This document shows, piece by piece, positions 8,414 through 64,000 of a stretch of 64,000 nt of DNA (its first letter is position 1; each line of letters starts with the position of its first letter). Under the pieces are notes generated by a model that worked only from the letters and a program-made list of their open reading frames with translations, was not told the origin of the DNA and searched no databases. The position numbers and the translations under genes are program-made. Location of the stretch: positions 1-64,000 of the IMG/VR virus record IMGVR_UViG_3300004369_000009. One strand, given 5' to 3'. This stretch comes from a virus.

Positions 8414-8414
8414 T

Positions 8415-13559: not shown

Positions 13560-13593
13560 GTACGCCTGTCCAGGTCAGTGTTATCCTCTTCAG

Positions 13594-13601: not shown

Positions 13602-13606
13602 GCCAA

Positions 13607-17536: not shown

Positions 17537-18134
17537 AACCTAGGTAATTAAATGATATAGCGATCCTCTGAGAAGCATTACTTGGTGGGACTCTATGCCT
17601 TACCCAAGATGGGAAAAGAATAAAGTCATACTGCTCTGCTGTCACTTCAGTAGATATAGTATCTATACCTGCCATGTGTTCATATGGTGTCATCCTTAGA
17701 ATGTAATCATTGGGATTACAAAATCGAATGTTAGCCGAACCCTTAGGCTTCTTAAAATAGTAGACTCCAGATACTTGGCATCTACCATTCCAACCATCTC
17801 TATGACTGTGCTCTGCTGTGCTGTCATTAGAGAAATGTTTGTTTGCCCAAGAGTGCTGACACTCAACGTAAGCCATCCTTCTATATCCAAGGATGTTCAC
17901 CCAGTAGTCTCGGACAGCGTAATCAATCCTTTTCCAGAACCATTTCAATTCAGGAATGCCATGAAGGTCCATGCCATTAGGTGCGGTAGATAAACCAGTC
18001 TCACCAGCAAAGTCACCCAACTTAGAATCCAAAAACATTCTAGTAAGGATGTCATCAAACTCGGCTTCTTGATATTCGGTGGGGCAAAGATGCCCCTTGA
18101 ATACTGGAACCGAGAACAAAGGATGGATGGTCAT
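17529..18134 (-). CDS. Putative 2OG-Fe(II) oxygenase (TIGR02466/PF13759-like), 201 aa
   Basis: The start MTIHPLFSVPVFKGHL is the 'LF.VPVF' opening of the family. The iron-site region is AEHSHRDGWNGRCQVSGVYY: H109 or H111 with D113. The distal site is H180 in LFPSWVRHRVPPSN, and R190 in SQRIAISFNY is the 2OG candidate. It resembles the 187-residue protein two genes downstream in design, so the two may be paralogues with different substrates. The ATG at 18134 overlaps the upstream stop (ATGA); the longer TTG start two codons upstream is rejected. Confidence 0.84.
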   Translation of the reverse strand: MTIHPLFSVPVFKGHLCPTEYQEAEFDDILTRMFLDSKLGDFAGETGLSTAPNGMDLHGIPELKWFWKRIDYAVRDYWVNILGYRRMAYVECQHSWANKHFSNDSTAEHSHRDGWNGRCQVSGVYYFKKPKGSANIRFCNPNDYILRMTPYEHMAGIDTISTEVTAEQYDFILFPSWVRHRVPPSNASQRIAISFNYLGYD

Positions 18135-36353: not shown

Positions 36354-36361
36354 TATTTATA
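36354..36361 (-). promoter_or_regulatory. T4-type late promoter core TATAAATA
   Basis: An exact core (context AGTATAAATAACG) overlaps the stop region of the 2394-residue fibre gene and lies 21 bases upstream of the 179-residue gene start. It would start a transcript through the 3633-residue fibre. Confidence 0.7.
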
Positions 36362-45985: not shown

Positions 45986-46300
45986 TTATTTATCGTTCTT
46001 CTCAACTAGAAGTTTGAGCATTTCTTTCAACTCATTAATCTCATTCTTCAGTTCCTGAGTCTCAGAGACGTTGAGTTTATTCTTTTCCCTAGCCTGAATG
46101 TATTGCTGATAACCAGTCTTATCGGTATTGATAATCGCATTGGATTTAGGATCACGCCCTAAGTTTTCGTGACCCTCAACTTTCATCAATCCAAGTTCTG
46201 ATCTAATATCTCTATTTTTTTCATACTCAGCTTTATCACGACGAGCGAGAACTTCTTGTTCCCGCCGTCTTACTATATCCTCAATTTTATCAAAGTCCAT
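45986..46300 (-). CDS. Charged coiled-coil protein, 104 aa
   Basis: The sequence is almost entirely charged and helical: MDFDKIEDIVRRREQEVLAR, then KAEYEKNRDIRSELGLMKVE and a C-terminal KNEINELKEMLKLLVEKNDK that reads as a clear coiled coil. Its ATG overlaps the stop of the DUF4815-type gene by one base. It may be a coiled-coil partner of the baseplate or fibre proteins around it. Not recognised. Confidence 0.7.
   Translation of the reverse strand: MDFDKIEDIVRRREQEVLARRDKAEYEKNRDIRSELGLMKVEGHENLGRDPKSNAIINTDKTGYQQYIQAREKNKLNVSETQELKNEINELKEMLKLLVEKNDK
45987..45994 (-). promoter_or_regulatory. Possible late promoter (GATAAATA) upstream of the 112-aa gene
   Basis: The minus-strand GATAAATA differs from the TATAAATA core by one base and lies at the end of the 104-residue gene, 38 bases upstream of the 112-residue gene. 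A second weaker box, GCTAAATA, is at 45,972-45,979. Position supports it; sequence is only near-consensus. Confidence 0.35.
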
Positions 46301-49300
46301 TATGCCAGAGCGATAATTCTAAGATCCTTAACTCTTGGAATGTATGGCTGGTTATAATTTCTCAGTACCAACTTCAGTTGGAATCCATCGAAAGCAGCCG
46401 CGTCATTCAGGGTGTACTCATAATCATTCCATACAAATGGGTCATTTTGGGGAACCATTTTTCCGCTATCGGGACGACCATCAGTGTTGAAGAATTCATA
46501 GTTGATGTCGTCTGGATCGCCAGTGTAACCAGCGGGAACGAGTTTGTACATAGCAATGATGTCTGAGAATTCAAATGTATTAGCAGACAAAGCAACCTTA
46601 ACACCTGTAGACGAATTTTCCAGTCTAGCAAGTCTCGTGATGTATATAGCGGCGTTCTCATCACCGATACCCTTACTAGGAGTAGCGTAGTTGATGAGGT
46701 TAGCAGTCGTGGTGACACTCATGCGCTGGGTGTCAATAACTGGTGACAGATGGCTTACATCCGAGAACATGTTCAATTCCAAGGTCAAAGACTTACCACC
46801 AGACATGTTGCTGATTTCATTCTGCTTGGAAGCGATAATCTTATGAGACAGGAAGTAGTTAATATCGTTAAGAGTGATTTCTCTCCAGGTAGAATCTGCT
46901 TGGAAAGAAGTTTCAGGGCTAACACCAGATGGGAAAGGACCACAGGAAGTACCGCTAGTGGCTCTTGCTCTAGCAGCAATCGAACATCCAGGTTGTACTT
47001 GAGTCTGAACTTGTGGCGTCAAAACATCCCAAGGGACATTTTGAGAAGAAAGAATATTTTCACCACCACCATTGATAGTCTTATGGGACTTGAATCCAGT
47101 GATATTCAATCTATACTTATGGGGGCTATTCAGAGAAGAAAAACCACCGAAAGTAGTTGTGTGGTGAGTTCCATTAACTCTTGTCAGAGGAATACCAGCA
47201 AGGTTATAGCACTGAACAGCAGCGTTGGCAGTATGAGCAGTTCCAGAAGCGGAACCAGAATTGCTAGCGGCATCCCAGTTTCTACCAGATACGGTACCCG
47301 AGTTGTGACCCAGAACGTTAATTACCCAGTTAGGAGAACCATTGTTAATATACTCATAAGCAATGATCTCATCGCCAATCTTAATGAATCCAGGATTGGT
47401 GTCAGAGACCGCAGGAGCGGCGTTACCAGGACCCGTGTTAGAAGCAGTCAGAGAAGCGGCTTGAGTGCTGTTGCCGCCGATACAGCGGTGGAATAGTGAG
47501 GCATCAGAGACAACAATCTGAGAAGCCGTAGCAGACAAATCGCTAGAAAGTACAGTGTCACCAATTTCAGAAATAACACCATCCAAGATTACATAGTTGG
47601 CATTACTCTGCATGCCGTGGTTGCTGTGGAAAACTTCAATGTATGCTTGATTGTCAGTTACAGCAATCGAGTTTGGCAGCAGTGGGAGGAAACCACCGTT
47701 GTTCTCTTCGAGAGTAGCGTTGTTCAGGAAGACTTGAGACTGGTTCAGAGTAGTGGGCAGAACAAAGTCTGCTCTGTAGATCTTGAACATCAGGTCTTCA
47801 AACTGAGAAGGTGTCCAAGTAGAAGCGTTCTGAGACTTGAACAGTACACCAATATAGGGTTGCTCAGAGATCTTCTCACCAGCATGAGCAGCGTCGATAG
47901 CATCCTCACCCAGCAAGGAGATGAACACCTTGTACTGGTTAGAGTCGGAGGTTACGACAATACAATGCTCAGTTTGATGGGGAATATAAACGGGGGATTC
48001 AAATGTGAAGGTAGTAGGAGCCGAAGCATCAGTAGAAGTAACTACATCACCCGCTTTCTTAATGACCTTAGAGAAAGGAAGAATAGTCTGAGTTGGAATA
48101 CCATTTTCTACCGTACGAATATCAATGGCAACAGGAATCTCAGAGTCCTTCTGCTGGAAGTACAGATCAATCTTAGTAAGGAATACACCACCCTCAAGCT
48201 CGTCATCTTGAATCAAGAAAGTTTGAGCCAATGGGTCAGACCACAGAGTCCTGTTTTGAGTCAATCTCTCCTCATCGAGTTTAGCATTACGAACCGAGAT
48301 GATTGTTTCCTGAGTGGTCTGGAGAATACCAGTTGCGCTGTATTCGGTTTGAGCGCTGGACTCAGACTCACCAACAACTGTAGAATCATTAGTAGTATCC
48401 GACAAGCGGAATACACGAGTACCAGTCTTAAACTTGGGATTAGTAGATTTACTTGGATCGGGGATAAAGAATGTACCTTTCAGGAAACCTGCCTGGTCAG
48501 TAACCAATCTTCTTTCCTTAACCTTTGCCTTAGCACCAGAAGACTGACCCACAAGAATTTCACCAGCAATAGGATTGCCCGAATAAGCACCTAGAGCCTG
48601 AGCAGCAAGTGAAGTAGTGTCGAGATTAATCCAACCAAGGTTAGCAGTATAATCGTTAACTGATGCGATATTCTGGTTAGTGTATGGGTTTATAGTGTAC
48701 TCATTGTTTGGCTCAAGAATACGAAGAGTCGCACCAGAAGTCAAACCTTTAACAGTTTCGCCAACTTGGAATGGAATACTATTGGTGTCAGAGTCATCAT
48801 TAGGATTCTTAGTCACTTCCAACATCTTAGGTGTGATGTAAGACTTAACTGAAACGCCATCAAAGAAAGCATAGAAACGAGTTTTGGGCTTAAGTTTCTC
48901 TGCCTTAAACTCAATATTTCTAGAGCGCATATTTTGAATGTGCTCAACAGAAACAACTCTATTACCAAGAGACTGCTGCTCAATGATAGGAGTAATTCTG
49001 TAACGGATACCACTTCTGGTCTGATCCGTTCTAACTCTAGAGAAACGTTCTGTACGAGTCGAACGATTCTTACCCTTACCTGTAGTAACTTGGCGACTAA
49101 ACCAAATACGACCAGACCATGTGGTCTGCCAGGAACCCCATTGAATAGGAGTAATACCATTCTGGTCCGCTCTCATATCACGGAGAGTGGTCTGGTAGTT
49201 ACCCTCAACAGTTGGACCCTGAAGAGCAGCCAGAGATTTAGTATCTACCCAGTCATCAGACTCAGGATAGAGTTTAATGTCACCAACGAAAGTAAAGACG

Positions 49301-52300
49301 TTGAATGGATTGACATTCTCAAGCGCAGAGGCAAATGGCTGGTCAACCAAAACAACATCACTATAAGGCAGGGTGATGATGTCACCAGTCTGCTTAATGT
49401 TGGTGGAATTGGAGCTAACAATCAAAGGAACGTTAGTTGTATAGTGAGAAGGGCGCAGATGACCTTCTTCAAAGTCAATAGAAACTCTGTAGTCTGGATG
49501 GAATGTATCGCTAGTTCCCAGAGAAGCAAAGTTGTCTACAATAAAACCATTCTTAAATCTGTCCAGACCATTAGTATCTCTGATCTGAAGAGTAGCAGTT
49601 TCAGTTTCAAGGAGAGACAGTTGAGTGTAGTATTCCAGAGTTTTAATTCTGGTTTCCAACTGTTGAATATCTCTAAAAGTATATCTCTTATAGTTTGTTT
49701 GAGTGATATCTACATCTTTGTCGATGTCAAAGATGTAAGGACGCATGAAGATGGTAGCCAGAAGCATGGCATCTTCAATCTCAGAAGGCTCTACTGGATT
49801 TTCAGCAGGTTCACCTTTAATTACTTGAATCTTATTATCTTTGTTGATGAATACTTTGTCAGTTCTACCCAAGTAGTATTCATAAGAAAGGATAGTGGTA
49901 TCGGACTGACCAGGAAGACCAACAAAGTTTCCAGTAAACTCTCTATTATCAAAGTCAAGTTTACCAGAAGAGGTATGCTCAAAAGGAGACAATCTTGTAC
50001 CAGATCCACTAATCAGGCTTGGAACCATTGGACGGAAGTCCAAAACATTTCTTAGTGGGAACTCAGAGAAAGTTGGAATCTCTTTATATACTTCACTGGA
50101 GTAAGAATCTACAGTATAGAAACCATCACCACCAGTGGTTACAAATCTATCAAAAATTACAAGCAGTTTGTGAGTAGGAGCAGCATACCCAGACTTTCTA
50201 ACGAGTCTGGAATAATCATAATACTGCTCTCTCTGACCATTGTCCAATTCGTAAGCACTGGTTACATTAGAACTGCCTAGAACAATGCTATTGGCTACGA
50301 TACGAGCAGTGGTTGTTTCGGTATTAATGACCTCTGCGTTATCAAACAGAGTATCAGTTAGCATCACAAAGTAAACATAGTTACTATCAAAGGATACAAT
50401 CTGAGCTTTAGCGCCAGAAGAAACACCAGTTATAATCTGGTTGATCGCATAAGAACCAACTAGGTTGGTATATGAGAAGTGTGGAATAACAGGAGACTGA
50501 GAATCTTTGGATTCATAGACTGCCTTAATCTTAAAGACATCAGGACAACCCAAAGAAATTGTACGATCCTCAACTCTAGTACCATAACCAGCTGTATAAC
50601 TGGTAAGACCATTAGCACTACCAAGAGCAGATTTATTAATCAAAGCCACTTTCATGCGTTCAGTGGTCTTAGACTTAGCAGATCTATTGCTACTGTATAC
50701 TGTGGCAATTACAATACAACCATTAACTGTAGTGGGAAGACCAGAAACAGAAACGGAAGCAGATCCAGCACCAGTGCTAGTAGTAAAATTGGGGAAAGTA
50801 TAACTATTACCAAGAACACCACTTCCAGAAGAGACGCTAGTTACAATGATTTGGAAATCATCAGCATCTTGTGGTGCTCTAAAGACAAGGTTTGATCCAG
50901 CAGAAAGCGAGAATGAACCGTTAGTGATCTCAGAAGAAGGAATAACGTATGACTTACGGAAATAACCCAGAGGAGTTACAGAAGCACCCTGGCTGTTTGT
51001 ACTGGTAGATTTGACAGCAGCCTTAGGAATAGGAGTAATCAGAGCACGCTTAGTAGCAAACTGAATCTGAGGTCTCGTCAGAGTAATGGCAGAGGTTACA
51101 GATCCATTAGCAAGAGTCGTGCTACCTTCTCTAGTAATTGTGAAACTAGAGTTGCTAGTTACATTAGTAACTCTAGCGGTATGTTGTTGATTGTTGTTAG
51201 AGAAACGAATGATATCACCAATTCTCAGCTGAGCCGTAAAGTTAGACAGGCTAGCAGTGATAGTAGCGTTTCCTCCAGATACCCCACTAACAACAGGACC
51301 GTTAGCAGAAACCGTTGCTTGAACATCCAAAAGGACATTAGCAGTAAAAGTGCCACTAAGGGTCATAGAACGGATGTCACTAAATTGATATCCGTAGATG
51401 CTAGAAATTGTTCCCAGGTTACTGGAAGCACTTTCATACCTAACGGCTTCACCAGCAACAAAGTTGCCAGTGATTCCGTATACAGTACAAGTGGAGTTAG
51501 AACCATTAGTTCTAACAAAGCCAGACGCGCCAGAGTTGACACCAACAATTTTGGTTCCTTGGACCCAAGTTACCGCACCAGTCATGGTGAGGGTAGTGAA
51601 CAACGTCGTATCCGAGACATTTACTCGGTAAATTGTGCTAGAGGCATCTCTAACACCAGAATCAAAACTAAAGCCAAAGACTCTAGTAAGACCGATAACA
51701 TTACCCACAGCAGTGCCAGGGGTAGTTACCAGTCTATCACGAAGTTCTACAGTTTCGTAAAGTTCTACGCCACCATACAATTCGTCCACCAGAACGTAGT
51801 TTCCAAAGTCAGAAGCAAACGACTGGGAATCAGCAGCAGTAAAAGTTCTTGGTTTATCACTATCCTTAAAGGTATTTGCCAGTTTCTCAGTTCTGTAACC
51901 AGAAATGTAGGCAGTACCAGGAGAGATCTGAATGGACATCTTGTCCTCAGATGGGTCATTACCATCTTGAGTAACAGCATCCGATTCATATACACCATTA
52001 TTGAAAGCGTTATTAAGATTTTCTCTAACATCAATAGAGAATCTCTTAACATAATAATCGCCAGACTCTTCTTTTGTTCTAAGAGCCAGAATATCATTAA
52101 TATAACTAAGATCACTACGCTCTACTTTACTCTCTAATTTACCTTCATTGGTACGGAGAAGTTCAATAAAGTCAGCGGAGTTAGGATCTTTAAGTTCCTT
52201 TTTGATTAGGGTCAGGTTGATCTTGAAGCGATCAGCACCAGGAGCAGAGAAGTTTGTGCTACCAATTGCGTTGTCATAAAGGGTAGGATCTTCATCAGCA

Positions 52301-52980
52301 GTGATGATTCTTTCCTCAACCTTCAAACCAACCTTGTATGAGGGGCTATTGCTATATTGATCAAGAACAACCGTTTGTTCGGGTACAGTTACAAAATAAC
52401 CACGAACAAAATAAACACCTCTACCAATATTAGCGGTGGAAGCAACGGCAGTGCTGTTGGAGTTCAGCAACTGAGCCAGAGGCGTACCAGAAACAATAGT
52501 GGATGTGCTGTAAGTAATATCTTCTTCGCAAGTCAGAACTTCGCCAGCCTGAAAGACGCTAGTAGTATTATCGTCTGCTTTTGTCAGGTAAGTCAAATAG
52601 AACGAAACGTATCCACGAGTAGACTCAGCGGCACTAATACTGAAGTTTACACGAGCACGAATGTTCGAGTTAGAACCTTTGATTACCTTATTATTCAGCG
52701 CTTCCCTATAGAGCTCAACGGGAAGGTTGAGATAGTTATTTTGTACAAGTACAACTGGATACTGTTTGTTGAGGGTGATACCCCCAGGCACAACCATACT
52801 ACCCTCACGGTAGATGCCCTGACCAAACGAGTTGATTTGGTTCTGGAGCAGTGACTGTAGGGTGGTTAATTCTCTAGCTTGGACTGGATATCCAGGCTTA
52901 AAGAGTACCTTGAGAAACCCCTTATCCTCATCAAAGTCGTCAAAATAAGGGGAAATATTAAGGTTGGTATTCTGTGCCAT
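46300..52980 (-). CDS. DUF4815-type virion protein, 2226 aa
   Basis: Its N-terminus is characteristic of the DUF4815 family of cyanophage structural proteins: NISPYFDDFDEDKGFLKVLF, PGYPVQARELTTLQSLLQNQ and NSFGQGIYREGSMVVPGG. The middle is a long beta-rich region. A KIGDEIIAYEYINNGSPNW unit resembles the IGNEVMKV unit in gp15. The C-terminal part carries FESPVYIPHQTEHCIVVTSD and ends RVKDLRIIALA. It follows gp8 directly (adjacent stop and start), so it occupies the position of the T4 gp9/gp10 baseplate-pin proteins. A baseplate periphery or fibre-connector role is likely but inferred. Confidence 0.88.
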   Translation of the reverse strand: MAQNTNLNISPYFDDFDEDKGFLKVLFKPGYPVQARELTTLQSLLQNQINSFGQGIYREGSMVVPGGITLNKQYPVVLVQNNYLNLPVELYREALNNKVIKGSNSNIRARVNFSISAAESTRGYVSFYLTYLTKADDNTTSVFQAGEVLTCEEDITYSTSTIVSGTPLAQLLNSNSTAVASTANIGRGVYFVRGYFVTVPEQTVVLDQYSNSPSYKVGLKVEERIITADEDPTLYDNAIGSTNFSAPGADRFKINLTLIKKELKDPNSADFIELLRTNEGKLESKVERSDLSYINDILALRTKEESGDYYVKRFSIDVRENLNNAFNNGVYESDAVTQDGNDPSEDKMSIQISPGTAYISGYRTEKLANTFKDSDKPRTFTAADSQSFASDFGNYVLVDELYGGVELYETVELRDRLVTTPGTAVGNVIGLTRVFGFSFDSGVRDASSTIYRVNVSDTTLFTTLTMTGAVTWVQGTKIVGVNSGASGFVRTNGSNSTCTVYGITGNFVAGEAVRYESASSNLGTISSIYGYQFSDIRSMTLSGTFTANVLLDVQATVSANGPVVSGVSGGNATITASLSNFTAQLRIGDIIRFSNNNQQHTARVTNVTSNSSFTITREGSTTLANGSVTSAITLTRPQIQFATKRALITPIPKAAVKSTSTNSQGASVTPLGYFRKSYVIPSSEITNGSFSLSAGSNLVFRAPQDADDFQIIVTSVSSGSGVLGNSYTFPNFTTSTGAGSASVSVSGLPTTVNGCIVIATVYSSNRSAKSKTTERMKVALINKSALGSANGLTSYTAGYGTRVEDRTISLGCPDVFKIKAVYESKDSQSPVIPHFSYTNLVGSYAINQIITGVSSGAKAQIVSFDSNYVYFVMLTDTLFDNAEVINTETTTARIVANSIVLGSSNVTSAYELDNGQREQYYDYSRLVRKSGYAAPTHKLLVIFDRFVTTGGDGFYTVDSYSSEVYKEIPTFSEFPLRNVLDFRPMVPSLISGSGTRLSPFEHTSSGKLDFDNREFTGNFVGLPGQSDTTILSYEYYLGRTDKVFINKDNKIQVIKGEPAENPVEPSEIEDAMLLATIFMRPYIFDIDKDVDITQTNYKRYTFRDIQQLETRIKTLEYYTQLSLLETETATLQIRDTNGLDRFKNGFIVDNFASLGTSDTFHPDYRVSIDFEEGHLRPSHYTTNVPLIVSSNSTNIKQTGDIITLPYSDVVLVDQPFASALENVNPFNVFTFVGDIKLYPESDDWVDTKSLAALQGPTVEGNYQTTLRDMRADQNGITPIQWGSWQTTWSGRIWFSRQVTTGKGKNRSTRTERFSRVRTDQTRSGIRYRITPIIEQQSLGNRVVSVEHIQNMRSRNIEFKAEKLKPKTRFYAFFDGVSVKSYITPKMLEVTKNPNDDSDTNSIPFQVGETVKGLTSGATLRILEPNNEYTINPYTNQNIASVNDYTANLGWINLDTTSLAAQALGAYSGNPIAGEILVGQSSGAKAKVKERRLVTDQAGFLKGTFFIPDPSKSTNPKFKTGTRVFRLSDTTNDSTVVGESESSAQTEYSATGILQTTQETIISVRNAKLDEERLTQNRTLWSDPLAQTFLIQDDELEGGVFLTKIDLYFQQKDSEIPVAIDIRTVENGIPTQTILPFSKVIKKAGDVVTSTDASAPTTFTFESPVYIPHQTEHCIVVTSDSNQYKVFISLLGEDAIDAAHAGEKISEQPYIGVLFKSQNASTWTPSQFEDLMFKIYRADFVLPTTLNQSQVFLNNATLEENNGGFLPLLPNSIAVTDNQAYIEVFHSNHGMQSNANYVILDGVISEIGDTVLSSDLSATASQIVVSDASLFHRCIGGNSTQAASLTASNTGPGNAAPAVSDTNPGFIKIGDEIIAYEYINNGSPNWVINVLGHNSGTVSGRNWDAASNSGSASGTAHTANAAVQCYNLAGIPLTRVNGTHHTTTFGGFSSLNSPHKYRLNITGFKSHKTINGGGENILSSQNVPWDVLTPQVQTQVQPGCSIAARARATSGTSCGPFPSGVSPETSFQADSTWREITLNDINYFLSHKIIASKQNEISNMSGGKSLTLELNMFSDVSHLSPVIDTQRMSVTTTANLINYATPSKGIGDENAAIYITRLARLENSSTGVKVALSANTFEFSDIIAMYKLVPAGYTGDPDDINYEFFNTDGRPDSGKMVPQNDPFVWNDYEYTLNDAAAFDGFQLKLVLRNYNQPYIPRVKDLRIIALA

Positions 52981-54504
52981 TTAGAATTCAATTACTACTT
53001 TGAGCTCTTCGTTCTGATCCGCCGATCTGGAAATCGGGTTCCTATTATCTATGTAGAGGATTTCTCCAGAGTTGATTTGAACCTCTCCGTTAGCATAACC
53101 CTCAACAAAAGAGAGACCAAGTTCATAAACAGAAACACCAATCTGAATCTGACTCTTAGGAACAGATGCTGTACCAAAAGTAGAGTCGGGAGTGGCAGTG
53201 ATCAAATCAGATGAGGTAATTTCATAGTTACCAGAGAACTCAATGATGTTACCCGAAGTAACTCCATCAAATGAATCCTGGTAATACTTCAAAAGCTTAG
53301 TATTGGAATCATAGGAAACTACATATCCTTTTGCGAGTGTAGTTGCCTGTGAGATTGTAGATCCAGGTTGGAACGTTCCGTTAGGGGCGCCAGTTCCAGA
53401 CTGAGGGAAGATCATGGCTTTTACACCAGATCTTGTGTTTTGAGAAGACACCGTTGTGGTGTTGTAGTCATATGGGTTAAGAACCAGACCGACTCTACGG
53501 AATGTAAGGTCAGTTGGGAAGTCAACAAACGCAGTAGAGGTTTCAAGTTTGGAAGCAAACATCAAACGATAAGATCCAAGTTCTCTAGCAGCATCAGAAC
53601 CATGACCACCGTTAGGAGGAATAATGATATCCAAATTTGCGTTAGCACCAGTACCGATGTTTGTAATCAAACCAACATCAATAGTGGCAAAACTATAGTT
53701 AGATCCAGACTGAGTAACGGTAACATTACTAATACTACCAGAAACAACAGTAATGGAACAATATGCTTGAGTTCCTCCATTGATTTCCCAATCACCACGA
53801 ATGGGTACATTAGTGAATGTGCCGTTATTATAACCAGCACCAGCATTCTCAATAACAATAGTATCAACTGAACCAGCACCAGCGGCAGCTTCTACCAGAG
53901 CATTGTCAAGGACGGGGATAAACTCAGAAGTAACGAACTTCAGAATGTTATCAGCGTCAATGGTGTACATGTACTTCCAACGATACTTATAGTCGGAAGA
54001 ATCATTAGTTTCAATAACTGTGGTCGAGGTGCCAGTTGGCTCTACTAGCGAAGGACGACCTTTGGGAAATTCGGGAGTCTGACCATTATAAAGACACTTG
54101 TAGACATTAAAGTCTGAGTTCATCACATAGAAGTTAGAGTCATACAAACGGGTCGCGCCATTTGCTGTCGTCTTTGCTGGTGAATAATCAGGTTTGTACA
54201 TAGAGTATGTACGACCAGTACCACCAGTAGTTTCTGTTGGGTCAATCCAGTCAACCCTAGGAATGACGAGAGCGGTGTCAGAAATATCTACGCGCTTATA
54301 TGCTACCGAATCAGAGTATACCTGTCGATGGTATGTAAATGAATCAATAGGCTCGTCTGTGGGAGGTGAATCTGAATTTCCTGCCCATGCCTTAGGTCTA
54401 CCTACAAAGAGATAGACTCTATTAGCATCAGAGCCTGCACTGCCTAAGGTGTTTCGGAACGCCTCGGCAGCATAAATCCTAAATTTGTCGGTTACAAGAG
54501 CCAT
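52981..54504 (-). CDS. 8: Baseplate wedge protein gp8 with beta insertion
   Basis: gp8 dimers form part of the T4 baseplate wedge. The N-terminus (TDKFRIYAAEAFRNTLG; YLFVGRPKAWAGNSDSPPTD) matches the T4 gp8 KFRTEK and FGRSEPW regions. The middle has YKCLYNGQTPEF (T4: YRCLD) and KYRWKYMYTID (T4: YVWEYLFEI). The C-terminus GEILYIDNRNPISRSADQNE aligns with T4 GEMIYMENRPPI. T4 gp8 is 334 residues; this has 507, with a GAGY beta insertion at about 210-300 that T4 lacks. An exact late promoter core lies 20 bases upstream. Confidence 0.94.
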   Translation of the reverse strand: MALVTDKFRIYAAEAFRNTLGSAGSDANRVYLFVGRPKAWAGNSDSPPTDEPIDSFTYHRQVYSDSVAYKRVDISDTALVIPRVDWIDPTETTGGTGRTYSMYKPDYSPAKTTANGATRLYDSNFYVMNSDFNVYKCLYNGQTPEFPKGRPSLVEPTGTSTTVIETNDSSDYKYRWKYMYTIDADNILKFVTSEFIPVLDNALVEAAAGAGSVDTIVIENAGAGYNNGTFTNVPIRGDWEINGGTQAYCSITVVSGSISNVTVTQSGSNYSFATIDVGLITNIGTGANANLDIIIPPNGGHGSDAARELGSYRLMFASKLETSTAFVDFPTDLTFRRVGLVLNPYDYNTTTVSSQNTRSGVKAMIFPQSGTGAPNGTFQPGSTISQATTLAKGYVVSYDSNTKLLKYYQDSFDGVTSGNIIEFSGNYEITSSDLITATPDSTFGTASVPKSQIQIGVSVYELGLSFVEGYANGEVQINSGEILYIDNRNPISRSADQNEELKVVIEF

Positions 54505-54599: not shown

Positions 54600-57500
54600 T
54601 TATGCGTAGAGTCTAACAATTGGACGGATCTGTAGTGTAGCGCTGGTTTCCTGAAGAGCTACAGTAGAGGTAATTGTAAAGGTTGCGTCACCAGTCTTGG
54701 TAACTTTATATACCCCATTCAAAGAACTATATGACAAAGTACCACCAGAACCAGGAACTGTTCCGCCAGAAGTGAAGAAGATATATCTCTCCATTCCAGT
54801 TTCAAGGTTATGATCACTAGACATAGTTACAGAAATGGTGGTGCCGTTGGCGGTCCAAGTTCCATTTTCAATGTTAATATTGTGTCCAACACCTAGGCTT
54901 GGACCTGTACGCTTGTAACCTCTACCATTAGTTGTAACAACAAAAGTATTAGCGTTATAATCAACTGTTCCGTAAAGAACTCTTTCTACACTCCAATTAG
55001 TACCATTCCAATAAGGAATCATTATTTCACCGTCACTTGGGAAACCTTCACCAGCATCATATCCAAAGTCTTGGCAAGGAATAGTTTGTGCTGTATCTGT
55101 AATAGAAGAAGAAAGAATCGCGGTGTAAAGGAATCTACTATTACTAATGGTCCTATCTCTTTGAGTTCTTTCAACAGCAACTGGGTGGAAAGTTTGTACA
55201 GTTGGAGCATTGACGTAATTAGATCCACCTTGAAGATCAATAACCTCAATGACTTTACCACTACCTTGCTCAATGATAGTTCTAGCGCTAGCGCCAGTAC
55301 CACCACCACCATTAAAGGAGAGGAATGGTGGATATTCATAATTGCCACCAGCATCAATAATATTGACCTTAACTACTTTTCCACCAACAACAACGGCTTC
55401 AAAAGAAGCAACAGATGGTTGGAGACCAGTATATTCATAAGTTTCAATAGAACTTGAAGAAGCAATCTGAGCAAGAATACGATTTTCACCTTCGGAGTCA
55501 ATTCTGAGAAGATCGCCAGGGTCAATACTGTTGTAAGTATCTTCAACTGTGATGTCTAGGTCAGAACCAGTGTAGATGAAGGTCAGACACTCGGCACCTG
55601 CTCGTGGTGCTTCAGTGAATTCAAGAATTGAACCATTCAGAACAAATGATACTTCTGGTTCCTGATAGACACCATTCATGAACATGATAATATTGTTCGC
55701 TGGGATAACGGCAGGAGAATCAGATTCCAGGGAGAATGGCTGATCATTCTTCTTAAGAATGAATGTTTTTCTCTCATTATCAAAGAATGGAGCAATAGGA
55801 TCTAGATCTTTCAACTGACCAACATAGAAGCAGTAGAAATCCATGTTGCCCAGCGGGGCTTCAGTGAAATTGATGGTAGATGGAGTTCCTGTGTAACTGT
55901 AAGAAACACCAAGTTCCTGAATGTGGGAATTAAGAAATAGCAGGAATCTGTCGTTACCTGGCAGAGTATATCCAGTACCACCAACTTTAGCGGGGTACGA
56001 AGTTGTAGTTCCGTCAAAGGTAACGGTCTCAACTTCAATTTGGAAACTGTTGATTACAGTACCGCCAACATCAGCAGCATCAACACCAAGCATATCAGTG
56101 TTAAGGTAATTGCTACCTCCATTTACCAAAGCTACGTCGGTAACCGCACCTGTAACTCTAGCAATTGGATTGGTAGCAGCAGTTGTTGGATTGCCACCAG
56201 TAAATGCCAGAGTAGGTGCTTGATTGTAATCCTTACCTGTTTGTTGAACTTCAAGACGCTCGATAAATCTACCAACAGTGGCAGAAGCCAAAGCAGTTGT
56301 GGTAATAGTATCAGCAGGGTCGTTGATAATTTCAACAACAACATCATCGTAACCATAACCACCGTAAGTAACATTGATTCCAGTAACTGCTCCACCAGAG
56401 ATGGTAGCAGTAGCAGTAGCGTTAAAACCACTATTGGATTTGATCACTACAGTTGGAACATTGTTATAGCCAACGCCAGGTTGGGTTACTGCGATACTCT
56501 TGATGAAACCTTCAGAGGAAAGAACAGCAGAGATTGCGCCATCTGTAACAGCAGTATATCCAGACTGAACAATAGTAGGAGCACCTTCATACCCATCACC
56601 ACACTGACCAACAGTTCTAGTGAAGGTATTGAAGTTGCCCTGACCGATAACGGTGTAGGCAAAATCCATCAAAGTTTCAATCGTAGAGATTACATTTGTA
56701 CAACCTCCAGAAACCGAAGTGATGCTAGGATCCTTGTACTGGCTTCTAGTGCTGAAGTTATACTGCGAATAGGTCTCATAAGTTTCATTGTTAATTGCCT
56801 TCTTGACCATCTGACGTGCTTCTTCAAACACGTATTGGGTCTCGGCTTCTTCACCCTGTACGTGACCACCATTGAAGTACATATCGAGGTTGTCCCACAG
56901 AACGTGGTTACCACCGAATGCTACGTTAACGCCAACGGCACGCAAGATGTCAACAGTGTCAGATTTACACTGTTCATCACCAATACCAGGAGAGTTGAAT
57001 CCAGTAGGAGCAGTTCTAGTAAACGTAGAGAGAGAATCAGTGTCGATCGCAACTTCGATGATATTCATCAGAGTATCAATCGCAGCGGTTACGTTTGTAC
57101 AACCACCAACGACATTAGTAATACTAGAGTCCGTAACCTGAGAAATGCCGTGGGAACCGCGAACGGTAACTGCGGTATTATCAATTACTTCCTTAGCAAT
57201 CTTAGTGGCTTCTCTATAAACGTACTTAGAGTGAATCTCTTCGCCATCCAGATGTGAGGTGCCTACGTAGTAAGCAGCGGCATCATAGATTTCGCTGTTG
57301 GAACCATACTTGACGTTGATAGAAAGCGCTTCCATAACATCAACAACGTCATCGATACAGTTGACATTGCCGTTTGGAACGGTAAAGGCAGCAGGTTCAG
57401 TTCTGGTGGCATGAGTCATCAGATCTGTTTGGATTGCCAATTCGATGATGTCGATCAAAGTGTTGACACCAGAGATGACGTTTGTACAACCACCAGATAC

Positions 57501-60500
57501 GTTGGTGATTCCACTGTCGATCGTCTGGGTGTATCCATGAGAACCAGTGATACTAATTGTCTGGTTATCGATAGCCAGTTCCATCAGTTCTTCAAGTCTG
57601 CCGATAGCAGCAAGAGTTTGTTGCTCTTCGCCATCAATATGGGTTGTGCCAACGTAATAATTGGCGGCATCCCAGACTTGGTTGTTGGCACCATGGAGAA
57701 CGTTAAATGCTACAGCATCTACGATATCCAGGAGGTCATCAATACAATCCTGAGAGTTGCCTGTTGGAGTTACGAATCCAGGGAAATCTACGGTGCTCAT
57801 CAGGTGATAAGCTTCGTATGCTAGCAGGTTTTTGTTAGCGAGGATTGTGTTATATGCGTCAAAGTGTCTGTTGCTTTGAACCTCAAAAGGAATGTCGAGC
57901 AGCATACGCTCAACGGCTTCGTTAGCAATGAAGTTCTTATTGGTTGTAATCAAAGTAGAAGCATCGGCAAAACGATTTGCCTGAGGTGTGCCAAAACGAT
58001 TCATCAAACCAACAGCAACATCAGCAATAAGTCTGGCGTTATTGTTAATCAATACACGAGCATCGCCAAATCTGTCAGCGGTTACATTAGTAGCCGTATC
58101 GAGAACATTGGTAATTGTGATGTTACCAGTAGCTCCAGTGCCATTTCCAATTTTATTTGTAAATGCTACATTATTGTATACGCCAGGAGTGTATCCACTA
58201 CCCTGGTAGATACCATCTGTGGTATTCAGGGAAGTAATAACGTCTCCAAAGATATCCAGCTGGAAGTTGCCGCTGATATCTTGGCGTTGATAATACATGA
58301 TAATACAGACCGAATCCTTAATCGGTGGCTCGGAGAAGGTGAGGGTGCTTCCACTTAGACTATACGAAACTGGGTTCTGTACAATACCGTTGATGGTTAC
58401 CATCAACTGATTTTTGTTTAGAGGTGTTATCTCAGTATCTCTGAATCTCAACTGATAATCAACAGTTTCATCATCAAAGGCAACGGTCAATTTGTGCTTA
58501 ATGCCTGTGGAAACTCCCGTCAGTGGAACTGCGGTACCAGCAGTAGCATTGGCTTTGGTTGTTGCCAATTTGAGATTATCATCATCAACTCTGATGATGT
58601 AGTAATCAGTATTAGCATCCAAACCACCAATGGGAACAGAGTTGGCAATTTCAGGATAATATCCTGGGTTGCGCTCTGGAACGCTGGATGGATTGTCAAT
58701 ACCACCCCATACAATCTCAGCAAGAGTGTCAATAGTATTCTTGACATCTGTACAACCGTTAGTATCCAGAGTGATAGTAATATCAGTTACTGGGAGTTGG
58801 TTTACAATCGCCTGCTTAGCCAGATCTCTGGCATATTGAATAGCACCGATTGTTTCCTCTTCTTCGCCACCAATATAATATACACTATTGTTAGGTACAG
58901 TTCTGGTAAGACTACCAAATGGACCATTAGCACCAGAATCAACAGCATCCGTAAGGATTGTCATGAGGCTAGTGATACTACTAGCGACATTCTGACAGGA
59001 AGCTACATAACCACCTGTCTTTTCAGTTCTATTCTCTACAAGGTGCGAAAGTGGTGCGGTGATGGCAGCAGTTACAATGTCCATCAGAGTAGTGATGGCA
59101 GAAACTTGATCCGCACACTTGACGTATGAAGGATCATCAGCGGGGGCAGTGTCATCTGTAATCGTCAGATCAAAGACTTGACCAGACATGTCACCGACTG
59201 GCTTATTCTGAATTACCAGAATCGCAATATCTCTTGCTTGCTCAAAAGCATAGATCGATTCAGTTTCTTCGCCAAGGATGTGAGTTCCAGTTACATAGTA
59301 GTTCGCAGCATCCCAGATTTCGTCGTTTCCACCACGAGACATATTCTCAGCAAGTGCTTCGAGAACATCTACGATGTCATCTTCGCAATTAACTCTACCG
59401 TTTGGTACAGAGAATGTTGGGAAGTTGGACAGCATTCTGTCTACAGCAGTTACCGCAATCTGAGTCTTATTAGAGAGAATGAGATTTCTGGCATCAGCAT
59501 GTCTATCACTAATGTAACCAGCAGGATCTTTAGTGATAGTGTTATCGAATACTTGAGTTTGGCTGGTATACTGTGGATTGATTGGATAATTTTGCATGGC
59601 TTGAATTGCCATGTCTCTAGCGTGGTTGAATACCTCAATAGTTTGGGTTTCTTCCCCAGATACGTGTGCTCCTGTGATATACAGGTTAGCAGCATCATAT
59701 ACTTCGCTGTTTCCGCCGAATGACAGGTTATAAGCCAAAGCCTCAAGGATATCGATAACATCATCGATACAATCTTGATTATTACCAGTAGGAACAGTAA
59801 ATGCGATATTATTTGGATCAGCAAGCATTCTACCGACTGCTTCTTCAGCAATCAGTACCTTGTTATCGAGGATGCTCTGTCTAGCATTGGCATAGCGATT
59901 GCCAATGGTACCAACACCACCAATGTATTCTTGTACAGCATCCCAGGTAAATGCGTTTCCACCATAACGGAGGTCATTAACCCATGCTACGACAACCAAT
60001 CTAAGGTCACGAGCACATATAGTTCTATCGTAATCTGGTTTGGATCCATCGGTTAGAGCTGGATAATTTGCTTCTAGCCATACAATAGACTGATCAATAA
60101 TATAGTCAATGTTCTTAAGAATTAGGTCTCTAGCATCTTGATATCTGTCAGCAGGGGCAGAGTAATTTGCTTTCTGACCAGTAATAAATCCATGGTTAGT
60201 GAGAGCAAGAGTGTCACTAGCATCTAGAACTACAGCTGGATCTGTGCCATCAAATGTGTAAGTTTTAGATTCGATTTTATCTAGTTTGTTTACAATGGCA
60301 CTAAGAATTCTCTGGACGTCCAGAAGTTGCTTACCTTGAACAAGAACATTTGTAGGCACTGAAGACGTGTAGTCTGGCTTGCCCATAAAGTAGTTCTGAA
60401 TCCTAGAAAGCTTACCAGCATTGGAAGCAGAGGGTTTTGGCGTAAAGAATGTAGTTCCATTGAAGGACTGGAATTCATTACCAAACCTTTGAGCATACCA

Positions 60501-63500
60501 GTTGTTTGGATCTGGGTTTGATGGGTTATTAAAGGAAGCAGCATTGTATCTCTTAAATGCGGTTTGAGAGATAACCTGTGTACCAAGAACCTTAAATCCA
60601 GCAGGGTGAGCTGTTGTCTTAAATTGATTCTTCCACTCACGTACGTTGATTGGAGAACTTACAACGTAAGAGAACTCTTGGAATCTATCTGAGTCATATA
60701 GACGCTGTTCATTAAGATCAAGAATACCAGTGGTTCTCTTAAACTGAGCTGTAGCAGTAGCGATTGGAGAAACTTGGAACGTAGCGTCTGCTTTATCAAA
60801 ATCATGAATCTCACCGAATGCTTTAGTCTCAATACCAAAGATTGGTTGATTAAGTTCAAACTCCCCAGACTGAACTTCAACTGACAAAATTCTACCAAAT
60901 GGATCCCATGCTTTAACAATACCGACAGCATTAAACGATGCTGTAGATGTACCCTGATAAACTGTCTCACCAACAGCAAACGATGCAGGAGTCAAAGAAA
61001 CATCAATTGAATCTCCAAGATCTGTAGTTGTGAGTTGGAATGTAGCGGTACCACCGCTACCAACAGTAGCGGGTCCAGTAAGTGTGACAGCAAGTCCACT
61101 AACTGCGTTAGCCAACGTAGTAGCAAGCCACATTTGGTTAGAACCAAGACCATTAGTTAGGCTTGGAGCAATAGCATAGTAAATTCTATTGGTAAGCAAA
61201 GGTGGTGGTAGTCTACCATCAATTTCACGTAGCTCTACTTTAGTCCCAGTTGGGATCTTAGTATTGTATGGGAAGTTGAGAGTATTGTTAGATGTAAGAG
61301 GTACAAATTGGTGAGTAACTCTAGCCAGAACATCAGGTGTAGATGAGAAACCCTTACCTGGATTAATGACATCAATGCTTTGGATAACTTCATTATCTAC
61401 GTTAACTTTCACTTCAAAACCAGATCCACCACCACCAACAAACTCAATAGTTGGTGTGGAGACGAAGGAATATCCACCATTAGTTACAGTGAAGAAATCT
61501 ACAATTTGAGTTCTAACCAACTGGAGGTTATATGTTGTATTGACCTCTGGCTTGAGAGTTCTATCGTGAGAGTAGTTATAGGTAATGTTGTCACCACCAA
61601 GATTGATGATCTTACCAAGGTCACTAGACTTCAGAAGAATAGAAGCACCTCTACCAAGTTTCTGGTTAATAGCAATAATTGGAGCATTCTGGAACTTAGA
61701 TCCAGCATTTTCAATGATAATCCTAGTTACTGATTCATCTACAATTTCTGCTCTCAATACTGCATCAATACCAGTACCACCAGAAATAGCAACTTCTGGA
61801 GCAGACAAATATCCAGAACCAGAACTTGTTAGAATAATCTCGTCAATAGATGCGTTGATTGTAGTAGAAGTTTCTGCTGGTCTTACAAATTCCAGAGAAT
61901 CAACTCTAAGAACAAAATCATCAGTTCCATCTACGCCGCCAGGAATTTGAGCGCCAGAAATCGTAATAAGGTCACCCAATGAATATGTACTGCCAACATT
62001 AGTTACTACAACAGAAATAATGTCCTGGGTAGAAGCATCGATAGTTATAGTAAATTCAACTCCAAAGCCACCAGTAGGAGCAACAGATTTTTGAGTTACG
62101 CCAGTATGAACTCCTGGAGTAAAGTTGGCAGAACTATTTTGGTTTTGAACTTCAGCAGTCTTAACACCACCGTAGTAAGGATTATCAATATAAATTGTTG
62201 GAGCCTTTCTATAATTTGATCCGCCATTGTTAATAGCGATATTCGCAATAGTTCCGAGCTCTGGACCACTAGGGGGTACAACCGCAGCAACTTGTGCGTG
62301 AGTTCCAGATACAGCAATAACTTCTGCTTGGTTAGGACCACTAAAGACTTTATTTCTCTGTGCGTTGCTAGCATTAAACATTAGGAATCCACGATTAGTA
62401 GCCCCTACCAGATTGTTTCTGAGTGGTTGGACTCTAAGAGTGGATGTATTGGGATTCCAGGAAATTACCTTACCACGAGCACTATCTCCAGATAGATCCT
62501 TCTCCGAAGTAATTACATCACCTTGAGAGAATGTGCCAAATACCTTATCTACAGTGAGGTCAACAAAATCTGGAAGACTACAATATACAGAAGGTGGATT
62601 AGATGGTTCATATCCAATTCCATTTTCAAGAATAGCAACGTCCTCCAAGAATCCAGAAATGGTTGCTGTGGCAGCAGCACCATTACCAGACCTTGTTACC
62701 CCAAGGAACTTAGGTAGAGTAGAATAATTTCTACCTTTATCACCAATATTAATAGACGCAATACCGCCGCTAGGATAAATCGACGTTGTGGAGTAAATTA
62801 CACCATTAGATTTCGAGTATCCACTATCTGGCTCATTTGGCAATATAAACGAAACTGTATTTTGAGTAACGGAAGTGACTGTATTGGATCCAATATAAGG
62901 ATCTTGGATTACACTAAAATAACTACCACTTAGATTACCGTTGATATCAAAATAGAACAACGTTCCAGGAATATCTTTAATGAGAACTTGAATGCCTAAT
63001 TGTTGACCTGTTACTGGATCATTTTCTACATCTGTGATATTTTTGTAAGTAAAGACATTAGTGTTTTCCTTATCAAAGGTAAACTCTAGTCTTCTATTTT
63101 GATTGGAAACATCAGAAGTATTAAATGTATAAGCATGACCATTAATTAGATTCAAGTTTGGCTCTTGGCAGTAAATAACCGCCTGAGTTACGATTGCTTC
63201 ATTTGGAATCGAAGATCCTGTTGGGATATTAAACTGGAATCTTCTCTGAGTTGTAGCACCAGTTACTACAAAGGTTCCATCATATTCAGATGGTTGACAA
63301 CCAGTAACAACAACTTGATCTCCAGCTTTGAGGTTGTGGGAAGCACTAGATCTTAAAGTATATTCAATCAGTACATTATTTGGAGTAAGGGTAAATCCAT
63401 TACCATTACCAATGTTTAGATTGTTGGCTGTCAGTTGCTCCCCAGCTCTATATCCAGAACCAGCTTTGGTTAGAACAACTGAACTGACTTCTTGATTGCT

Positions 63501-64000
63501 GTTGACAGTAATCGTAAATTCGGCACCCTCTCCAGAATCTTGACCATTGAACAGTGGGACATTAAAGTAAACGCCTTCAGTGTATCCACTGCCAGCAAAA
63601 ATAACCCAATCCTGATCGATCAGGGAGCCAGTCTTAAGAACGGTACCAATATCAACACTAAATCCATTTCCACCGCCACCACCAATCTGTGCGTCATTTA
63701 TCGTAAGAACATCTCCATCAAGATATCCTTTTCCTTGATTGGTAATAGTAATCGCAGTAACAGCACCACCAGTAACGGTGATATTAGCAATGGCACCAGA
63801 ACCAGAACCACCACTAAGGCGTCTGCCATTATAAGTGCCGTTTAGATAATTTTCACCACCAGTAATTACCAGTTCACCTTGCTGGATTCTACCAGGACTA
63901 CTTTGGTAATAATCAGTAGCATCAAAGTAACTGAAGTTATATTTGTTATTAATGATTTTGACATCAATATCCTTATTGATGTAATTGTCAGCAATACTTA
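54600..64000 (-). CDS. Giant fibre/baseplate-type protein, 5' end beyond window (over 3100 aa)
   Basis: The frame stays open from the window's right edge to the stop at 54600, giving about 3132 in-window residues. The sequence upstream of a TTG at 63,155 was read codon by codon and has no stop, so the true start lies beyond 64,000. It contains many GxGY beta units, a cupredoxin-like region without copper ligands (about nt 62,895-63,155) and about six Cys helical modules (nt 56,595-60,150). It lies just upstream of gp8, the place of T4 gene 7, but no gp7 homology was recognised. It may be a gp7 replacement, or a fibre anchored to the baseplate. It ends LQIRPIVRLYA. Confidence 0.85.
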   Translation of the reverse strand, partial: SIADNYINKDIDVKIINNKYNFSYFDATDYYQSSPGRIQQGELVITGGENYLNGTYNGRRLSGGSGSGAIANITVTGGAVTAITITNQGKGYLDGDVLTINDAQIGGGGGNGFSVDIGTVLKTGSLIDQDWVIFAGSGYTEGVYFNVPLFNGQDSGEGAEFTITVNSNQEVSSVVLTKAGSGYRAGEQLTANNLNIGNGNGFTLTPNNVLIEYTLRSSASHNLKAGDQVVVTGCQPSEYDGTFVVTGATTQRRFQFNIPTGSSIPNEAIVTQAVIYCQEPNLNLINGHAYTFNTSDVSNQNRRLEFTFDKENTNVFTYKNITDVENDPVTGQQLGIQVLIKDIPGTLFYFDINGNLSGSYFSVIQDPYIGSNTVTSVTQNTVSFILPNEPDSGYSKSNGVIYSTTSIYPSGGIASINIGDKGRNYSTLPKFLGVTRSGNGAAATATISGFLEDVAILENGIGYEPSNPPSVYCSLPDFVDLTVDKVFGTFSQGDVITSEKDLSGDSARGKVISWNPNTSTLRVQPLRNNLVGATNRGFLMFNASNAQRNKVFSGPNQAEVIAVSGTHAQVAAVVPPSGPELGTIANIAINNGGSNYRKAPTIYIDNPYYGGVKTAEVQNQNSSANFTPGVHTGVTQKSVAPTGGFGVEFTITIDASTQDIISVVVTNVGSTYSLGDLITISGAQIPGGVDGTDDFVLRVDSLEFVRPAETSTTINASIDEIILTSSGSGYLSAPEVAISGGTGIDAVLRAEIVDESVTRIIIENAGSKFQNAPIIAINQKLGRGASILLKSSDLGKIINLGGDNITYNYSHDRTLKPEVNTTYNLQLVRTQIVDFFTVTNGGYSFVSTPTIEFVGGGGSGFEVKVNVDNEVIQSIDVINPGKGFSSTPDVLARVTHQFVPLTSNNTLNFPYNTKIPTGTKVELREIDGRLPPPLLTNRIYYAIAPSLTNGLGSNQMWLATTLANAVSGLAVTLTGPATVGSGGTATFQLTTTDLGDSIDVSLTPASFAVGETVYQGTSTASFNAVGIVKAWDPFGRILSVEVQSGEFELNQPIFGIETKAFGEIHDFDKADATFQVSPIATATAQFKRTTGILDLNEQRLYDSDRFQEFSYVVSSPINVREWKNQFKTTAHPAGFKVLGTQVISQTAFKRYNAASFNNPSNPDPNNWYAQRFGNEFQSFNGTTFFTPKPSASNAGKLSRIQNYFMGKPDYTSSVPTNVLVQGKQLLDVQRILSAIVNKLDKIESKTYTFDGTDPAVVLDASDTLALTNHGFITGQKANYSAPADRYQDARDLILKNIDYIIDQSIVWLEANYPALTDGSKPDYDRTICARDLRLVVVAWVNDLRYGGNAFTWDAVQEYIGGVGTIGNRYANARQSILDNKVLIAEEAVGRMLADPNNIAFTVPTGNNQDCIDDVIDILEALAYNLSFGGNSEVYDAANLYITGAHVSGEETQTIEVFNHARDMAIQAMQNYPINPQYTSQTQVFDNTITKDPAGYISDRHADARNLILSNKTQIAVTAVDRMLSNFPTFSVPNGRVNCEDDIVDVLEALAENMSRGGNDEIWDAANYYVTGTHILGEETESIYAFEQARDIAILVIQNKPVGDMSGQVFDLTITDDTAPADDPSYVKCADQVSAITTLMDIVTAAITAPLSHLVENRTEKTGGYVASCQNVASSITSLMTILTDAVDSGANGPFGSLTRTVPNNSVYYIGGEEEETIGAIQYARDLAKQAIVNQLPVTDITITLDTNGCTDVKNTIDTLAEIVWGGIDNPSSVPERNPGYYPEIANSVPIGGLDANTDYYIIRVDDDNLKLATTKANATAGTAVPLTGVSTGIKHKLTVAFDDETVDYQLRFRDTEITPLNKNQLMVTINGIVQNPVSYSLSGSTLTFSEPPIKDSVCIIMYYQRQDISGNFQLDIFGDVITSLNTTDGIYQGSGYTPGVYNNVAFTNKIGNGTGATGNITITNVLDTATNVTADRFGDARVLINNNARLIADVAVGLMNRFGTPQANRFADASTLITTNKNFIANEAVERMLLDIPFEVQSNRHFDAYNTILANKNLLAYEAYHLMSTVDFPGFVTPTGNSQDCIDDLLDIVDAVAFNVLHGANNQVWDAANYYVGTTHIDGEEQQTLAAIGRLEELMELAIDNQTISITGSHGYTQTIDSGITNVSGGCTNVISGVNTLIDIIELAIQTDLMTHATRTEPAAFTVPNGNVNCIDDVVDVMEALSINVKYGSNSEIYDAAAYYVGTSHLDGEEIHSKYVYREATKIAKEVIDNTAVTVRGSHGISQVTDSSITNVVGGCTNVTAAIDTLMNIIEVAIDTDSLSTFTRTAPTGFNSPGIGDEQCKSDTVDILRAVGVNVAFGGNHVLWDNLDMYFNGGHVQGEEAETQYVFEEARQMVKKAINNETYETYSQYNFSTRSQYKDPSITSVSGGCTNVISTIETLMDFAYTVIGQGNFNTFTRTVGQCGDGYEGAPTIVQSGYTAVTDGAISAVLSSEGFIKSIAVTQPGVGYNNVPTVVIKSNSGFNATATATISGGAVTGINVTYGGYGYDDVVVEIINDPADTITTTALASATVGRFIERLEVQQTGKDYNQAPTLAFTGGNPTTAATNPIARVTGAVTDVALVNGGSNYLNTDMLGVDAADVGGTVINSFQIEVETVTFDGTTTSYPAKVGGTGYTLPGNDRFLLFLNSHIQELGVSYSYTGTPSTINFTEAPLGNMDFYCFYVGQLKDLDPIAPFFDNERKTFILKKNDQPFSLESDSPAVIPANNIIMFMNGVYQEPEVSFVLNGSILEFTEAPRAGAECLTFIYTGSDLDITVEDTYNSIDPGDLLRIDSEGENRILAQIASSSSIETYEYTGLQPSVASFEAVVVGGKVVKVNIIDAGGNYEYPPFLSFNGGGGTGASARTIIEQGSGKVIEVIDLQGGSNYVNAPTVQTFHPVAVERTQRDRTISNSRFLYTAILSSSITDTAQTIPCQDFGYDAGEGFPSDGEIMIPYWNGTNWSVERVLYGTVDYNANTFVVTTNGRGYKRTGPSLGVGHNINIENGTWTANGTTISVTMSSDHNLETGMERYIFFTSGGTVPGSGGTLSYSSLNGVYKVTKTGDATFTITSTVALQETSATLQIRPIVRLYA
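56595..60150 (-). repeat. About six Cys-containing helical modules in the giant protein
   Basis: The cores read CARDLRLVV, CIDDVIDIL, CEDDIVDVL, CIDDLLDIV, CIDDVVDVM and CKSDTVDIL. Each is followed by a YGGN or similar turn and a WDAANYYV.G.H..GEE segment. A beta region (about nt 58,100-58,700) separates the first three from the last three. Shorter Cys helices (CTNVISGVNTLIDII) sit between some modules. The same unit occurs four times in the 3633-residue fibre. Confidence 0.8.
62895..63155 (-). other. Cupredoxin-like domain lacking copper ligands (giant protein)
   Basis: INGHAYTFNTSDVSNQNRRL aligns with VEGNTYRFDVSDASNSGHPL of the 2394-residue fibre, but RR replaces the His-Pro that would give a copper ligand. 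The C-terminal loop reads FYFDINGNLSGSYF where the other copy has YICTNHANMGSG. It is recognisable by motif only and presumably a structural unit. Confidence 0.4.

Follow-up and report, generated by a model that had tools for sequence, protein, structure and literature searches.

Does the very large gene at the gene 7 position of this virus replace the baseplate wedge protein gp7, as the original prediction had considered, or is it gp7 itself? The virus record, a fragment, is 73,656 bases long, and the window analysed spans its positions 1-64000. On the minus strand of the window, a single frame of 3,132 aa extends over 54600..63998 and is still open at the window edge. Addition of the upstream stretch gave the full gene at record positions 54600..67937 (-), encoding 4,445 aa from an ATG start with no internal stop, and the earlier expectation of a frame running beyond the window with more than 3100 residues was borne out. 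The modular build of beta and helical units that had been read from the sequence was recovered by profile, which gave 15 beta units and 8 helical stretches. The gene was compared with an 88%-identical copy in record G001 (IMGVR_UViG_3300033273_000282). dN/dS was 0.095 overall and 0.066-0.126 in 12 windows along the length. By these values the whole length of the gene is under purifying selection, as expected of a genuine gene.

According to Pfam and PHROG, the genes on the same strand are ordered PAAR (PF05488), gp25 (PF04965), gp6 (PF21379), giant gene and gp8 (PF09215). The giant gene sits exactly between gp6 and gp8, in the slot of gene 7 as had been proposed; the T4 order is likewise 6, 7, 8. 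The following features surround this position:

54600..64000, minus strand: giant gp7, C-terminal 3,132 of 4,445 residues; the gene extends past the window edge up to record position 67937
52981..54504, minus strand: gp8, baseplate wedge; PF09215 and phrog_438
46300..52980, minus strand: 2,226-aa VrlC-type protein, relative of PHM1_089; assigned from its position and its likeness to the P-HM1 gene that is annotated as VrlC

As the original prediction implied, no separate gp7 was found past the gene start, where the record runs on for 5.7 kb and contains gp6, gp25 and PAAR among others. When the first 700 residues of the giant protein were used in a tblastn search, 470 of 50,697 phage records matched, and among the matches listed many label the gp7 relative merely 'structural protein'. 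Elsewhere in the window, inspection by eye suggested two adjacent FAD-binding proteins resembling tryptophan halogenases (18900-22023) and, in a 1,714-aa protein (8415-13559), a protease segment of subtilisin type.

The gp7 wedge core

The whole giant protein matched PF23786 (Baseplate_wedge) with 28.4 bits against a cut-off of 27, with no single stretch passing. The match is in two pieces, profile positions 181-221 at residues 209-249 and 234-278 at residues 2411-2451. The gp7 wedge core of the protein consists of two blocks, with a 2,135-aa insert between them and a 1,985-aa tail after them:

67140..67481 (record positions, outside the window), minus strand: block A of the gp7 wedge core, residues 153-266; profile matches
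60558..60734, minus strand: block B of the gp7 wedge core (...HPAGF...), residues 2402-2460; profile matches and PF23786 split match

Both blocks were present in 17 of 17 proteins compared; KG[TI] marks block A, and HP[AV]GF or a variant marks block B. A profile of six compact gp7s, containing no T4 row, was searched against all PDB sequences. Its first two hits were T4-type gp7 (E 3.6e-9 and 1.1e-7), with profile span 7-117 aligned to residues 646-760. The separate block A and block B profiles, built without T4-type rows, matched gp7 alone among 62 ORFs of the T4 locus (E 1.2e-9 and 1.2e-5) and among 471 ORFs of P-HM1 30-160 kb. In our own record neither block was matched outside the giant protein (325 six-frame ORFs of at least 60 aa). 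Profile-profile comparison likewise supported gp7 identity (E 1.3e-6 and 1.6e-6). In a control for block A with 903 shuffled or reversed T4-type gp7s, no sequence scored above 8.1 bits, compared to 28.9 for T4. For block B, one of 903 shuffled or reversed sequences reached 21.4 bits and so outscored T4 (16.8), and this block is therefore supportive and by itself no proof of a T4 link. The gp7 profile A3 also matched the tail sheath protein gp18 (E 4.2e-5), via the part after block A. A phmmer search of the giant protein against the PDB returned nothing useful, and the core was not confident in an AlphaFold model of an 896-aa compact gp7 relative (mean pLDDT 52). T4 domain V (PF21427) had no match in P-HM1, P-SSM2 and G001, and none was listed for the giant protein at E 0.001; as this domain lies in the variable insert, it was not counted as defining gp7.

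Judged from its sequence, the giant gene contains the gp7 wedge core and thus is gp7. The original interpretation holds as to position, size and a wedge bearing a much larger fibre-like protein; it did not say what the helical units resemble. The idea that the gene replaces gp7 has to be given up, as the protein itself holds the core and the blocks occur nowhere else in the record. Giant gp7s are already annotated in P-HM1 and P-SSM2, and a giant gp7 as such is known. In published work, however, cyano- and pelagimyophages are said, in a passage of a 2020 paper (PMC7029224), to have no counterpart of T4 Gp7 and to use VrlC in its place, and gp7 is named among non-cyanophage core genes in a section of Sullivan et al. 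2010 (PMC3037559). If VrlC indeed stood in place of gp7, the giant gene would encode an unrelated fibre protein. The 2020 statement speaks for this, but the core blocks are found in the giant protein and in the 896-aa Melnitz protein and not in VrlC; the block profile search of the 2,226-aa VrlC-type protein detected no gp7 core block. Moreover, a compact gp7 (503 aa) and VrlC both occur in the IME-SM1 locus. We consider a loss of gp7 to VrlC extremely improbable and, contrary to that passage of PMC7029224, place gp7 in cyano- and pelagimyophages.

Two other gp7 candidates were considered. PHM1_095, which bears a second gp7 label in P-HM1 (locus stretch 10325-17602), was rejected because both core blocks are missing; its relative in the window (36357-43541) has just beta units in common with the giant protein. 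The G001 record has the gp25-gp6-gp7-gp8-VrlC cluster twice, at 7-40 kb and at 111-140 kb, and two gp13-gp16 sets, but one gp23. Its second gp7 might point to a phage with two baseplates; given the one gp23, a chimeric record is the simpler reading.

Insert, arm and phycobiliprotein-like units

The gp7 wedge core has a single insertion point, where length ranges from 88 to 2,814 residues over 17 phages. The distance between blocks A and B is 88 residues in D527, 91 in SRB7757, 104 in RB43, 105 in T4, 184 in BUCT-ZZ01, 231 in pf16, 247 in IME-SM1 and ACP17, 375 in Melnitz, 418 in phiM9, 533 in Cr30 and 789 in phiM19. It is 2,135 residues in the giant protein studied here, 2,215 in P-SSM2, 2,332 in P-HM1, 2,699 in S-SM1 and 2,814 in ACG-2014d. 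A YHYH domain (PF14240, E 2.2e-27) was found within the insert at residues 981-1110 (record 64608-64997, outside the window). In the C-terminal arm, six units with a Cys motif were identified, and four further units lie in a fibre-like protein:

59898..60164, minus strand: phycobiliprotein-like unit 1, Cys 2641, motif CARD; profile match
59577..59909, minus strand: phycobiliprotein-like unit 2, Cys 2723; profile match, part of the structure model
59196..59519, minus strand: phycobiliprotein-like unit 3, Cys 2851; within the part of the structure model that matches phycobiliproteins by superposition
57552..57884, minus strand: phycobiliprotein-like unit 4, Cys 3398; profile match
57162..57500, minus strand: phycobiliprotein-like unit 5, Cys 3527; profile match
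56772..57113, minus strand: phycobiliprotein-like unit 6, Cys 3657; profile match
55137..56501, minus strand: C-terminal stretch with beta 'GSGY' units, residues 3813-4267; profile
24874..35775, minus strand: 3,633-aa fibre-like protein with the four further phycobiliprotein-like units; PF00502 weakly in two
30823-31161, 31327-31659, 31741-32073 and 32236-32562, minus strand: phycobiliprotein-like units of the fibre-like protein; profile

The same beta 'GSGY' unit also occurs in a gp14-like protein (6276-7607), the fibre-like protein, the 2,394-aa protein at 36357-43541 and gp8.

Residues 2676-3060 of the giant protein were modelled from an alignment that is shallow and partly misaligned (pLDDT 72.6, pTM 0.51). 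This predicted model covers two of the units, shows a globin-like phycobiliprotein fold and superposes on phycobiliprotein beta subunits. Foldseek listed 50 hits in the PDB: 49 carry the name of a phycobiliprotein or phycobilisome, the remaining one is a 'bacterial fluorescent protein' (8u0f), and none is at E 0.001 or better (best 5.2e-3). The 50 VIA-align rows listed likewise comprise 49 entries so named plus 8u0f, with Z up to 17.2 among the matches listed. On 7ssf_F, model residues 136-285 superposed on chain residues 35-177 (Z 17.1, 2.1 A, 134 residues).

Further support is provided by sequence comparisons, which are independent of the structure model. A profile of 15 units (ten own and five from P-HM1) was searched against 177,635 PDB sequences at E 10 or better. 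It returned 58 hits, of which 56 are named phycobiliproteins, the others being 8u0f and one hydrolase (1ybt); the best E was 4.4e-4. In the alignment, the unit Cys falls on the bilin-attachment Cys of ACLRD. When 38 units were compared with 51 cyanobacterial phycobiliprotein-family sequences by hhalign, P was 4.2e-7. The reversed profile gave 0.21, and none of 200 column shuffles did better than 0.014; with 16 longer units P was 9.2e-7. In nine whole records searched with PF00502 at E 0.5, 11 of 11 phage matches were inside unit arrays, and the records concerned were the six that have units and no others. Matches at this level, below the Pfam cut-off, also occurred in three of 14 control genomes examined besides Synechococcus elongatus, namely E. 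coli, Thermus and Deinobacterium, which have no phycobilisome. Single window units matched PF00502 in two of ten cases (E 0.0066 and 0.015), with no match listed for the other eight. No unit passed the cut-off of 22.2 bits, the best scores being 16.9 bits in the window units and 21.2 in S-SM1; for this reason the units are termed 'phycobiliprotein-like' and were not filed as members of the family.

A chance match of helical bundles could in principle give such a resemblance. Helical models often score high (VIA-align gives a typical best Z of 14 for a set of five largely helical models that have no clear match), and the single-unit Pfam scores are under the cut-off. Chance would not readily account for PDB sequence hits that are nearly all phycobiliproteins, for the gap between the profile-profile P and its controls, or for the confinement of the phage PF00502 matches to unit arrays, and we regard it as very unlikely. 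The unit domains apparently derive from cyanobacterial light-harvesting proteins, a direction that we infer. Virion proteins thereby gain a link to phycobiliproteins. In a literature search of titles and abstract starts, with most subscription papers outside its scope, no link of phycobiliproteins to phage structural proteins was found among the papers listed.

Units were found in 11 other records: P-HM1, P-HM2 (five unit matches), S-PM2, P-SSM4, Syn9, P-TIM40, S-RSM4, S-SM1, ACG-2014d, G001 and G002. None was detected by the unit profile search in P-SSM2, T4 and Melnitz. The S-SM1 orthologue of the giant gene, SSM1_102 (T4-GC969), has three phycobiliprotein-like units, and T4-GC969 is reported, in a section of PMC3037559, among genes detected in purified S-SM1 virions. 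The 'short tail fiber' gene of S-PM2 (11 kb, locus stretch 7429-18768), which bears units, has 16 tRNA genes annotated within it, some of them over unit matches; this annotation is probably misplaced.

Very probably, then, the gene is gp7 of a marine cyanophage resembling P-HM1 and encodes a baseplate wedge subunit made of a core, an insert and an arm with phycobiliprotein-like tandem domains. The N-terminal helices and the HPAGF segment (residue ~2444) make up the conserved core, which in T4 pairs with two gp6. By analogy, the core probably assembles with gp6 into the wedge, as the T4 core does (wedge heterotrimers of T4 and of T6SS are treated in sections of PMC3004832 and PMC6300606). The 2,135-residue insert with its beta units and YHYH domain is placed at the point of T4's ~105-residue insert, and the 1,985-residue arm after the core, like the neighbouring 3,633-aa fibre-like protein, carries the tandem domains. 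As the most likely way of working, we infer that insert and arm extend outward as rods at the periphery and help to reach or bind the host.

Putative bilin sites, bilin genes and adsorption

The bilin-site Cys, and the Asp three positions after it, occur in 15 of 15 seed units, a conservation that is built in, since the seeds were picked with a motif requiring C..D. A wider search, which did not require this motif although its seed did, gave 65 non-redundant units; among the 51 reaching the respective columns, the Cys is kept in 46 and the Asp in 47. The ten own units read C-x-D-D (eight), C-A-R-D and C-K-S-D (one each), so that the Arg of the phycobiliprotein C-x-R-D is replaced in nine of them. 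Some units read C-A-R-D, C-I-R-D or C-L-R-D, like phycobiliproteins. A second Cys, in a helix ~90 residues on (the helix-H part), was found by pattern in 16 of 39 units and scored as missing in 23, two of these wrongly, as the pattern missed the gp7 units 2851 and 3398. It aligned with Cys153 of phycocyanin only at a low threshold, and the helix alone gave P 0.21, which is not significant.

Phage bilin genes were surveyed in hand-chosen records, leaving out our own, a fragment with units and neither gene. CpeT (PF06206) is present in 10 of 11 records with units (all except ACG-2014d) and in none of three without. As the records are hand-chosen and of shared descent, this co-occurrence is a lead to which no statistic was attached. 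Bilin reductase (PF05996) occurs in five of the 11 (P-HM1, P-HM2, P-SSM4, P-TIM40 and G002) and also in the unit-free P-SSM2. All of giant gp7, units, bilin reductase and CpeT are present in G002 (189,106 bases). CpeT lies upstream of the unit-bearing 'short tail fiber' gene at 1.4 kb in S-PM2 and 1.0 kb in S-RSM4; in P-HM1 it is ~35 kb or more away from the units.

The units may be read in two ways. They could hold a bilin, covalently or otherwise bound, that phage enzymes produce and attach, and could serve as a light sensor or virion pigment, for example by gating adsorption. This proposal, drawn from motif and gene content, is consistent with the retention of Cys and Asp despite ~20% identity, with the complete C-x-R-D of some units, with the CpeT distribution and with the proximity of CpeT to the units in S-PM2 and S-RSM4. 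T-type lyases act on a phycobiliprotein cysteine, Cys153 in the case of CpcT, according to a section of PMC10452541. P-HM2, which has units, is reported in part of PMC7112961 to be unable to adsorb in the dark, and this suggests a light-gated role of the units. The light effect on adsorption may, however, belong to the host and not to the phage. P-SSM2, where no units were detected, reportedly adsorbs in the dark. Against bilin binding stand the patchy distribution of bilin reductase and its presence in P-SSM2, ACG-2014d with units and neither gene, the distance of CpeT from the units in P-HM1, and the choice and relatedness of the records. We consider a bilin-carrying role rather unlikely.

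We lean instead towards units that are derived from phycobiliproteins and act as bilin-free structural or adhesive modules, their Cys being kept for folding or disulfides. The replaced Arg, the second Cys lacking from many units and the placement of the units in long arrays adjoining beta modules favour this reading. The Cys and Asp are, however, among the few nearly fixed positions, which packing alone hardly explains. Bilin-free modules appear somewhat the likelier. A full cyanophage tail photoreceptor, in which phycobiliprotein-derived domains of wedge and fibre receive bilin through phage bilin reductases and CpeT and restrict adsorption to daylight, is a speculative and improbable extension of the bilin-carrying role. 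If true, it would account for light-dependent adsorption and for bilin genes in phages whose hosts lack normal phycobilisomes. The phycobiliprotein resemblance could help explain the light-only attachment of some cyanophages. The role of phage bilin genes in hosts without standard phycobilisomes is described as unclear in a passage of PMC2984593; their purpose, and light sensing at adsorption, can now be tested.

Comparison with known systems

The closest systems are the annotated giant gp7s. That of P-HM1 (PHM1_087, 4,446 aa) shares slot, size class and core with the giant protein and is 56.5% identical over the first 700 residues. The whole P-HM1 genome has five phycobiliprotein-like unit matches, among them a fibre unit at 82752-83081, whereas our record, a fragment, has 14 (10 full-length). 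The gp7 of P-SSM2 (5,195 aa) is alike in slot, size class and core, but this phage, unlike our record, has zero units. T4 gp7 (1,032 aa) has the slot, block A, block B and the insertion point in common with the giant protein. It differs in having ~640 residues ahead of the core and a 105-aa insert, whereas in the giant protein the core is N-terminal, the insert 2,135 aa and the tail 1,985 aa. More distantly, TssF-TssG is described in a section of PMC6300606 as akin by fold and stoichiometry to T4 (gp6)2-gp7, and the likeness of the wedge proteins TssG and P2 gpI to gp7 is taken from that description. Phycobiliproteins (phycoerythrin and phycocyanin beta subunits, PF00502) share with the units the predicted fold and the positions of the bilin Cys and Asp. 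The units differ from them in an identity of only ~20%, in their tandem arrangement inside virion proteins and in longer loops.
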